Shown here: in pieces, positions 30,612-34,258 of the stretch | Numbering within the stretch: the first letter of the stretch is position 1 | Layout of the letters: every line of letters starts with the position of its first letter | Assembly: GCA_019638775.1 (NCBI GenBank) | Contig: JAHBTD010000001.1 | Span: forward strand, 1,116,001-1,180,000 | Source of the DNA: Fimbriimonadaceae bacterium | GTDB taxonomy: Bacteria > Armatimonadota > Fimbriimonadia > Fimbriimonadales > Fimbriimonadaceae | DNA: 64,000 nucleotides | Reading direction: 5' to 3' | Program-made: the position numbers and the translations under genes | The notes under the pieces: generated by a model | What the model saw: only the letters and a program-made list of their open reading frames with translations | Database searches by the model: none | What the model was told of the DNA's origin: nothing

Positions 30612-31685
30612 CTATTCCTCTTCTGTTGCTTCTGCTGAAACAACTGCCGATCCCTTGGCCATCAAACGCTCGCCTTTAACAATATCGCGGACCTTGGTGT
30701 TGATCTCGGCAAAGATCTCCGGATTCTCCTCCAGGAAGCTCCTCGCGTTGTCGCGACCCTGGCCAAGGCGAGTCTCGCCGTAGTTAAAGTACGTGCCTGA
30801 CTTCCCGACGACCCCACGCAATACCGCAGCATCGAGAAGATCGCCCGAACGGCTGATGCCCTGCCCAAAGATCATGTCAAATTCAGCAAGCTTAAACGGC
30901 GGAGCGACCTTATTTTTGACGACCTTGACCTTGGTGCGGGCACCAATCTGATCGGCTCCGACCTTGATCGCATCACCACGTCGAACCTCCAGTCGAATCG
31001 ATGACCAGAACTTGAGCGCGCGTCCGCCAGGGGTGGTCTCTGGATTACCGTACATCACACCGATCTTTTCACGTAGCTGGTTAATAAAGACCGCTGCCGT
31101 GTTCGACTTGCTGATGCTACCGCCCAATTTTCGCATCCCTTGGGACATCAGACGAGCCTGCAAACCGACAAACGCGTCGCCCATCTCGCCTTCAATCTCC
31201 GATTTCGGCACCAATGCCGCCACCGAGTCCACCACCACGATGTCGATCGCCCCAGACTTTATCATCCCATCCACGATCTCAAGAGCTTCCTCGCCGCTGG
31301 TGGGCTGAGAGATGTAAAGCTTGTCTACGTCAACGCCCAAAGCCCGCGCATATTCGATGTCCAGCGCGTGCTCCACGTCCACAAAAAGGGCCAATCCGCC
31401 AGCTTTCTGGGCCTCCGCGATCACATGCAGAGCGATAGTGGTCTTTCCGCTCGACTCCGCCCCATAAATCTCGGTGATGCGTCCGCGGGGGATGCCCCCA
31501 ACGCCGAGCGCCATGTCTAAACTCAGCGCGCCAGTGGAGATAGCCGGGACAGGTTCCTTTGTACCTTCGCCCATGCGCATAATCGCGCCCTTTCCAAAGG
31601 CCTTTTCAATCTGGCTCAGCGCAGAATCAAGCGCGCGTTCGCGGTCCGGAGAAATATCACGAGTCATAGTACGTTCGGTTGCCAT
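30612..31685 (-). CDS. recA: Recombinase RecA
   Basis: A 357-residue DNA strand-exchange protein and coprotease of the SOS response. Walker A is 'GAESSGKTT', Walker B '[20 protein letters not shown]', followed by 'LMSQGMRKL' and '[20 protein letters not shown]', all canonical. The C-terminus is short and only mildly acidic. ATG 31685 is chosen over 31697 because GAGGTG lies 9 nt upstream and the longer form adds an atypical N-terminus. A direct repeat of GTCTACA lies at 31708-31724 in its promoter. Confidence 0.98.
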
Positions 31686-31707
31686 TGATGAATACACCTC
31701 AATCTTT

Positions 31708-31834: not shown

Positions 31835-34258
31835 ATGCGCAAATGGCTGATCCCCATATTGCTTCTCCTGGCTTGCATTTCTGGGGCCCAGGAGTCGATC
31901 ACCATTCGCATGATGGCAAGCCCAGCAATGGGCATCCCACCCAAAGAAGCCACCGACCCCCGCTCCCAAGCCCGGCGTGCGGTCTTCGACGAATTTCATC
32001 GCCAAAACCCTGACATCCGCGTCGTCAACGCTGGAGGTCTTGAACTCACCGGCGACCGCGCTGAAAGTGGATTCCTTATGTCCATGGCGGGGGACACCGC
32101 CCCCGACGTCTTTTATGTCAACTTCCGGCAGTACTACAACTTTGTCGATCAAGGGTTTTGCCGCCCGCTAAACGATCTCATCGCCAAGGACCCCGAAAGT
32201 ATGGCGCGCGTGAACCCCCTCATCATGGAGGTTCTTGAAAGCTACGACGGCAAGATCTACGCGGTGCCGTGGTACCAGGTCGCGATGGCGCTCTACTACC
32301 GGCGCGACCACTTCCTCGAAGCGGGCCTCGACCCCACCAAACCGCCGAAAAACTGGGAGGAGTTCTACACCTACGCTCAGCGCCTTACCGAATCGAAAAC
32401 AGGTCGCTACGGATTCGTTTTTGGGCAAGGCTCGGGAAGCCGGGCCTATTGGTGGATCAACTTCGTTTGGCAGGCCGGAGGAGAGTACGTCGAGCCCGGA
32501 GAACGGGGGTACTGGAAGTCAGCCCTGGATTCTGACGAAGCCGCCGTCGCCCTCGACTTTTACCGCACCCTGGTCATGAACAAGTGGACCGGGAAAGACG
32601 GCAAGCAGTACGGACCGGTCGCCAACATCGTCGGCAATATCAACGACGAAATACGTAACGGTAACGTATCGATGTGGTTCGGCTACACAAACGACGTTCT
32701 GCTGAACATGCAGGACCTCAACGCCGCCCTGCTTGGGATTGCCGCCCTTCCCGCCGGGCCTGCAGGCCGCAAAAACGAGATCAACGCGGGAATGTGGGCG
32801 ATCAACGCGGCTGTGAAAGACCCTAAAAGGCTGGGGGCTTGCTGGCGATTCATCAAATACTTCTCTGGCGAAGAGGCCGCCCGCGTGAACACGGAGCAGT
32901 TTATTCAGCTAGGCATGGGCAACCTCGTCAGTCCCGTCTACCTCCGAAAATTCGGACACGACGATCTCCTTGGCCAGGTCGATCCCGCCTACGTTCGTGC
33001 CAACGAAGAGATTTTTCAAACGGGTCATCCCGAACCGTACGGGCGTAATGTTCAGCAAGTGTACGTCGTGGTCGACAACGCCCTCGATCGTGCAGTGCTC
33101 GAAAAAGACATACCAGCCAGGGAGATCCTGCGCGACGTCAGCGCCGAGATGAACGCAAAGCTGCTCGGCTACACTCCACCCGATGTCCTCGAAAAGCAGC
33201 GCAGCGTCGCCAGAATCGTCCTCGTCACTGTCTTCCTCATCGTCGCTGTTTGGATCGCTATCGCATGGCGAAGGGCAAGCAAGCGAACGGAGGTCTTCAT
33301 CGAGAGGCTGCCAGCGGGAATCAGCCGTTCGAGCATCCGCCGGTTCATGTTCTGGTGCATTCTTCCGGCTGGTGGCAGCATCATCGCGTGGGCGTATTAT
33401 CCGCTCTTGCGCGGGCTTGTCATCGCATTCCAGGATTACAGAATCGTAAAGGGCACGTCATGGGTCGGGCTCGACAATTTCATCGCCGTCTTCACCTACC
33501 CCATCTTTTGGCGCTCACTCCTCAATAGCTTTTTGTATGTTGCCCTCACGCTCATCATCGGCTTTTTCCTGCCGATTTTCCTCGCGCTCGCGCTCAACGA
33601 AATCCCGCGTTTCAAGGTCTTCTTCCGAACAGTTTTTTATCTGCCCGCGATGACCAGCGGCATCGTGATCGCCTTCCTATGGCGGCAGTTCTACGACAAG
33701 ACCGAAGCTGGACTATTGAACACGATCCTCGCTCCGTTCATTAACGGCATCAATTGGCTCTTCCATAAAAAGATGCACCTTTTGAGTTCGGACATTCCCA
33801 TCGCCAACGACTGGCTCGGCAATCCGACTTTGGCGCTGTTTGCCGTGGTGCTCCCCGGCATCTGGGCGGCGGCAGGGCCGGGCTCGATTCTCTACCTTGC
33901 CGCGCTTAAGAACGTCCCCGAAGAGCGCTACGAAGCCGCCGATCTCGATGGTGCGGGCTGGTTCAAGAAGATTCGGTACATCACATTCCCGGCGCTCACG
34001 CCGCTCATCCTCATCAATCTGCTCGGTGTTTTCATCGCAGGATTCAAAGCGATGGAGAACATCTTCATCCTCACGGGCGGTGGCCCGCTCTACGCCACGC
34101 ACACGATCGGGCTGGAGATTTGGACCAACGCGTTCATGTTCCTCAAGTTCGGCTACGCCACGGCTGCAGCGTGGGTGATGGGCAGCATCCTGATTGGGTT
34201 TACCACTATGCAGATCAAGCATTTGGTGAAGATGCGGTTTACGGCTGCGAAGATTTAG
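31835..34258 (+). CDS. Solute-binding protein fused to MalF-type permease
   Basis: An 807-residue protein joining two normally separate parts of a CUT1-type sugar ABC importer. Residues 1-19 are a signal peptide/anchor (MRKWLIPILLLLACISGAQ). Residues 20-440 form a family 1 extracellular solute-binding domain ('APDVFYVNFRQYYNFVDQG', 'WYQVAMALYYRRD', 'NAGMWAINAAVKDPKR'). A membrane helix follows at about 459-478. Residues 500-807 are a MalF-like permease with the EAA loop 'EERYEAADLDGAGWFKKIR' near 695. The linker helix keeps the binding domain outside. No MalG-type permease or ATPase gene is adjacent. A single uninterrupted frame makes sequencing error unlikely. The sugar is unknown. Confidence 0.9.
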   Translation: MRKWLIPILLLLACISGAQESITIRMMASPAMGIPPKEATDPRSQARRAVFDEFHRQNPDIRVVNAGGLELTGDRAESGFLMSMAGDTAPDVFYVNFRQYYNFVDQGFCRPLNDLIAKDPESMARVNPLIMEVLESYDGKIYAVPWYQVAMALYYRRDHFLEAGLDPTKPPKNWEEFYTYAQRLTESKTGRYGFVFGQGSGSRAYWWINFVWQAGGEYVEPGERGYWKSALDSDEAAVALDFYRTLVMNKWTGKDGKQYGPVANIVGNINDEIRNGNVSMWFGYTNDVLLNMQDLNAALLGIAALPAGPAGRKNEINAGMWAINAAVKDPKRLGACWRFIKYFSGEEAARVNTEQFIQLGMGNLVSPVYLRKFGHDDLLGQVDPAYVRANEEIFQTGHPEPYGRNVQQVYVVVDNALDRAVLEKDIPAREILRDVSAEMNAKLLGYTPPDVLEKQRSVARIVLVTVFLIVAVWIAIAWRRASKRTEVFIERLPAGISRSSIRRFMFWCILPAGGSIIAWAYYPLLRGLVIAFQDYRIVKGTSWVGLDNFIAVFTYPIFWRSLLNSFLYVALTLIIGFFLPIFLALALNEIPRFKVFFRTVFYLPAMTSGIVIAFLWRQFYDKTEAGLLNTILAPFINGINWLFHKKMHLLSSDIPIANDWLGNPTLALFAVVLPGIWAAAGPGSILYLAALKNVPEERYEAADLDGAGWFKKIRYITFPALTPLILINLLGVFIAGFKAMENIFILTGGGPLYATHTIGLEIWTNAFMFLKFGYATAAAWVMGSILIGFTTMQIKHLVKMRFTAAKI

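Follow-up and report, generated by a model that had tools for sequence, protein, structure and literature searches.

In textbook CUT1 importers, the receptor either diffuses or is lipid-anchored, and it often outnumbers the permease. In 2019, Licht et al. reportedly described a maltose/maltodextrin importer in which MalE and MalF are fused (Res Microbiol 170:1-12, doi 10.1016/j.resmic.2018.08.006). PMC9045158 lists this work, and PMC7756565 cites it for the statement that fused MalE-MalF is transport-competent. Receptors covalently joined to the translocator are also found in GlnPQ and OpuA (PMC8025302, PMC11065425). These are amino acid or osmolyte importers with two identical permease halves, so that each complex has two or four binding domains.

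Here we describe a gene for a MalE-MalF fusion protein in a 64-kb stretch of a Fimbriimonadaceae genome (the whole analyzed stretch, hereafter the window). The first-pass annotation considered such a fusion unusual for CUT1 systems, which holds, yet the type is not new given the MalE-MalF maltose importer attributed to Licht 2019 in the citing passages, and this precedent removes any claim to a new kind of protein. In the window's protein, too, a MalE domain and MalF form a single polypeptide; the earlier fusion and this one are alike in carrying one MalE-type domain on MalF, in belonging to CUT1 and, as far as the title of the earlier paper shows, in their domain order. They differ in that the Armatimonadota form is phylum-wide, is no longer linked to MalG within the window's order, and would work with a MalG that has a tandem-repeat insert.

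With E. coli MalEFGK2, the Armatimonadota system shares the type I fold, the division of labor between MalF, MalG, and MalK, the EAA loop, and a MalE-like receptor. In E. coli, however, MalE is free and a large periplasmic P2 loop is found in MalF, whereas the Armatimonadota receptor is part of the MalF polypeptide and it is MalG that has the large periplasmic insert. The covalently tethered receptor is a likeness to GlnPQ and OpuA, but the Armatimonadota fusion importer would have a heterodimeric permease and one binding domain: its permease half matches UgpA, GlcT, and MalF models and has a separate MalG partner, unlike a homodimeric permease of the GlnPQ/OpuA type. A literature search of open-licence papers found no report of MalE-MalF fusions in Armatimonadota, and what appears to be new is that fusions are used phylum-wide and come in two families, that the MalG partner is enlarged, and that the genes have separated.

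Domain architecture of the fusion protein

The fusion gene is a single open frame on the plus strand (31835-34258), running from ATG to TAG without an internal stop and encoding 807 amino acids with Pfam SBP_bac_1 and BPD_transp_1 domains. Its hydrophobic N-terminus (approximately residues 1-19, 31835-31891) is a predicted signal peptide with an approximate cleavage site; the AlphaFold model has a helix at residues 2-16, and the segment is variable in the alignment of homologs. The periplasmic sugar-binding domain follows (residues 22-444, 31898-33166) and is supported by Pfam, AlphaFold, and Foldseek. SBP_bac_1 matches residues 46-349 (E 4e-32, 112.8 bits, cut-off 26), pLDDT is mostly 80-95, and carbohydrate-binding proteins, GacH and T. 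maritima MalE3 among them, lead the structural matches (E values reaching 6e-18, TM to target approximately 0.8). By its Pfam score and these fold matches to sugar-binding proteins, this domain is a MalE-type receptor of the kind used by CUT1 importers.

The binding domain is connected to the membrane by a short linker (residues 445-457, 33167-33205), which is 13 residues long and free of indels in all 30 aligned homologs, with an LLGYTPPE motif in the consensus of the linker region. Hydropathy, alignment, and model all place an extra transmembrane tethering helix directly after it (residues 458-478, 33206-33268). The hydropathy of this helix is 2.78; it is hydrophobic in 30 of 30 homologs (minimum 2.06) despite varying letters, and the AlphaFold model has an unbroken helix from 449 to 487 that spans the tether. 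The next segment (residues 479-503, 33269-33343) is a positively charged loop predicted from its net charge in homologs to be cytoplasmic, with residues 477-503 averaging +4.7 (minimum +1) across the 30 homologs.

Pfam, NCBIfam, and PDB matches assign residues 504-807 (33344-34255) to a MalF-type permease domain. BPD_transp_1 matches residues 576-787 (E 5e-7, 30.1 bits, cut-off 26.4), the closest NCBIfam models are UgpA, GlcT, and MalF, with scores below cut-off, and the PDB matches are AlgM1, SugA, and MalF; AlphaFold confidence for this half is moderate (pLDDT approximately 45-80). This domain has an EAA, or coupling-helix, loop (VPEERYEAADLDGAGWFKKIRYITFPAL, residues 696-723, 33920-34003; EERYEAADLDGAGWFKKIRYITFPAL, approximately residues 697-722), in which Y699, D705, G706, and A707 are invariant across 30 homologs. 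This loop and the permease core are the best conserved parts of the fusion, the majority fraction being 0.76 for residues 501-807 versus 0.67 for the binding domain. Frame, Pfam, and hydropathy thus agree with the first-pass annotation, which had placed a MalE-type domain, a tethering helix, and a MalF-type permease with an EAA loop in one frame. Read from these features, the predicted order of receptor outside, helix leading in, and then the MalF half is the topology that should be required of a working fusion.

Distribution of the fusion in Armatimonadota

Full-length fused orthologs gave more than 100 matches across Armatimonadota, at identities of 58-70% within the window's family and order and approximately 38-53% for many families elsewhere in the phylum. 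The fused frame is also carried by 43 loci of a second collection, which overlaps in part with the first. A few homologs depart from the usual length. At L093:8001-10265 and G150:C1:2619471-2621720, the latter coordinates being those of a complete genome, the protein is approximately 50 residues shorter at its end (754-756 aa), possibly through truncation or sequencing error. Open frames of 1135 aa (L163:9760-13167) and 1002 aa (L165:6764-9772) contain extra N-terminal or inserted sequence. One contig titled Methanoregulaceae archaeon (L064, JADZEW010000011.1) carries both of the fusions described here plus a 578-type MalG (see below), all 54-72% identical to those of the window's genome, and its organism label is probably wrong.

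The likely MalG partner and the probable ATPase

No MalG or MalK-type ATPase is encoded within the 64-kb window, which is in line with the earlier remark that neither follows the fusion gene and leaves no MalG inside the window to pair with. The other CUT1 permeases lie elsewhere in the genome, which besides two fusions has four further MalE-type receptors and several ordinary MalF/MalG pairs. On another contig we found a lone gene for a 522-aa MalG (G000:C3:463486-465051, minus strand; L028:5487-7052). Other Armatimonadota families provide 18 loci (L147-L165 without L158) where a 592-709-aa MalG of this 522 type comes immediately after the fusion gene, the spacing between the two running from slight overlap to 69 nt. 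The two genes are likewise neighbors in L095, L096, L098, and L102, some of which may be the same contigs as among the 18 loci.

The two genes are also retained together. In families f1 and f2 (the window's own), 71 genomes contain both, 3 only the fusion, 4 only the MalG, and 15 neither (Fisher p 3e-11, a value for which kinship overstates the independence of the genomes); among genomes at least 90% complete the corresponding numbers are 61, 0, 2, and 12. Joint retention in f1 comes partly from shared ancestry; more weight falls on the linkage seen in other families, which is independent of kinship. This adjacency and co-retention point to a second, different permease subunit of the 522 type, and the fusion's MalG partner is almost certainly the gene at C3:463486-465051. 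The architecture of the fusion, its conservation, and its type-specific pairing with a large MalG can be read directly from the compared sequences. Pairing with the other enlarged MalG of the genome, the 578 type, was ruled out, as that type goes with the second fusion.

The sole OB_MalK protein of the genome is encoded at C1:331554-332681 (UgpC-model score 446, cut-off 432). It is an ATPase of the MalK/UgpC/MsmX type with a regulatory OB domain; its gene is unlinked, and it is by inference that we assign it to the fusion importer, of which it is probably the ATPase. Like MsmX elsewhere, the C1 protein is probably common to all CUT1 systems of this cell. The three importer genes are thus unlinked in the window's genome, and their pairing is drawn from relatives. 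The first-pass annotation had proposed that assembly must use distant genes and had suggested looking for an unlinked MalG and an MsmX-type ATPase. Candidates for both can now be named at these C3 and C1 positions. MalG directly follows the fusion in other Armatimonadota families, and the distance is, on the gene orders compared, the derived state.

The divergent neighbor of the fusion gene is recA (30612-31697, minus strand), an unexpected fixed neighbor for a sugar transporter gene. More than 20 related loci have a recA ortholog close to the fusion gene, and in almost all of them the two genes are on opposite strands. Because the fusion gene has this fixed place beside recA in the window's order, its separation from MalG looks like one old event.

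A predicted periplasmic insert in MalG

Hydropathy indicates that the 522-type MalG on C3 has an insert of approximately 260 aa between its first and second membrane helices, and because of this position the insert is predicted, by homology to MalG, to be periplasmic. The inserts of relatives consist of helical repeats arrayed in tandem, with local self-alignment scores of 131-132 against 32 ± 4 for shuffled sequences (L102, L154). The insert from the window's genome scores 41, with a shuffled maximum of 49; its repeats have diverged beyond self-recognition.

Pfam analysis of the relatives' inserts found up to three pieces of GH42 (PF02449) per protein, with E values of 1e-11 to 1e-15. The best pieces always cover one particular stretch of that profile, approximately positions 147-213 of 376, so that compared with a GH42 beta-galactosidase only this piece is present, and it is repeated. 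A complete GH42 catalytic domain was not matched by Pfam in the insert. Since only a fragment is matched, an active enzyme is unlikely, and we rejected the insert as an active glycosidase. Foldseek returned no significant match for the insert model (best E 1.8), pieces of 57-61 residues aligning with GH14, GH50, and related hydrolases; the membrane part of this model is unreliable (pLDDT <50). Our guess is that the insert contacts either the receptor or carbohydrate.

A second MalE-MalF fusion in the same genome

A second MalE-MalF fusion, also of 807 aa, is encoded at G000:C3:94402-96825 (L026:6403-8826) and is only distantly related to the window's fusion. Its relatives, found in 166 of 291 genomes, are no less widespread than those of the window's fusion, and in most Fimbriimonadaceae a 578-type MalG lies directly 3' of it, from which gene order this type is taken to be its partner type. 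In the window's genome this pair is separated as well: the lone 578-aa MalG gene is at approximately C1:581821-583557 (L027:3822-5558), next to an ftsY-like gene. This MalG has approximately 170 extra N-terminal residues with several membrane helices, plus an insert before the second core helix, and its orthologs in other families are shorter (approximately 370-440 aa).

In a tree of permease domains, each fusion family forms a clade (100/100), with stand-alone permeases in between. The stand-alone MalF of this cell and one from Sinorhizobium fall together with the second fusion (99/98), and a stand-alone permease from Streptomyces with the window's fusion (98/89). Forcing both fusions together gave an AU p of 0.019, which disfavors a single origin. 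Because the branches of the stand-alone permeases are long, two independent MalE-MalF fusions are likely rather than certain. PDB 6ffl, which we take to be the binding domain of the fusion described by Licht and colleagues in 2019, has a weak match to the second fusion (E 7e-6) and is not among the matches listed for the window's fusion at E 0.001. A more speculative model, which we consider rather unlikely, is a two-receptor importer in which a glycosidase-derived MalG array binds oligosaccharides and feeds the tethered receptor, with the combination of fusion and enlarged MalG having arisen at least twice in the phylum.

Proposed function and alternative explanations

We have good confidence that the gene encodes the MalE-MalF subunit of a CUT1-type importer that is paired with the C3 MalG and driven by the C1 ATPase. 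In such an importer the signal peptide would export the binding domain, and the 13-residue linker with the extra transmembrane helix would hold it on the periplasmic side of the inner membrane. After the tether helix, the chain would pass through the positively charged cytoplasmic loop into the MalF half, which would pair with the unlinked MalG homolog, and two copies of the MalK/UgpC-type ATPase would power the complex. Each transporter would have one captive receptor, which would close on sugar and open onto the MalF/MalG cavity when ATP binds. In MalG, the first periplasmic loop holds the repeat insert, which probably touches the tethered receptor or pre-binds carbohydrate. We infer that the complex forms, draws on a shared ATPase, and carries out transport, and likewise the class of substrate and the role of the insert; the neighbors of linked fusion copies vary between loci and reveal no substrate pattern. 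The short tether of fixed length would fit a loss of receptor diffusion in the periplasm, as the first-pass annotation had proposed.

Could the fusion be an assembly or frame artifact that merged two neighboring genes? Ordinary malE and malF share a reading frame and are separated by very few nucleotides (3 nt in L167, 12 nt in L169), and a lost stop could mimic a fusion; these two loci, the annotated best ones among plasmid records with more than 80% tblastn coverage, have adjacent separate genes. The same spacing of 3-12 nt in one frame also makes a true fusion a small step. The junction at 33150-33250, however, aligns without gaps to 29 homologs from other genomes, it includes an extra transmembrane helix, and the same frame recurs in dozens of independent assemblies. 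The first-pass annotation had considered that a stop or frameshift near this junction, or homologs always encoded as two genes, would undo the fusion. The junction is intact in those 29 homologs, homologs are fused throughout the phylum, and the architecture it proposed to search for elsewhere was found in dozens of Armatimonadota genomes. Gap-free fused homologs thus rule out a frameshift or assembly error, to which we assign a negligible probability.

A true fusion could still work with one of the ordinary MalG proteins (C1:716142, C1:961611, or C5:7023), leaving the lone large MalG to serve another system, since the genome has further CUT1 systems with a standard MalG and a shared ATPase makes sharing of subunits possible. 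Those ordinary genes sit beside their own MalF genes, however, and wherever the fusion is linked to a MalG in other families it adjoins the large-insert type and never an ordinary one; together with the joint retention and loss of fusion and large MalG, this makes such a pairing very improbable. It is also improbable, if slightly less so, that the protein is a tethered sugar sensor whose fused binding domain signals through the permease fold without net import. A lone gene beside recA, unlinked from sugar genes, and a partner MalG with an unusually large periplasmic domain would suit a sensor, but the EAA loop and permease core are the parts most conserved, the genome provides both a MalG partner and a MalK-type ATPase, and the known MalE-MalF fusion is transport-competent according to the passage in PMC7756565. 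The conserved MalE-MalF fusion is very probably functional in CUT1 import.

Implications for CUT1 importers in Armatimonadota

A poorly studied phylum thus keeps the receptor fixed to one permease half by a short constant linker in two transporter families, and it has a large periplasmic domain on MalG rather than on MalF. These importers form a natural series for asking whether the receptor of a type I sugar importer must dissociate, what sets the receptor-to-permease stoichiometry, and what role glycosidase-like repeats have beside a transporter. They also correct the annotation of the lone large MalG genes of Fimbriimonadales, which would be the missing halves of fusion importers.
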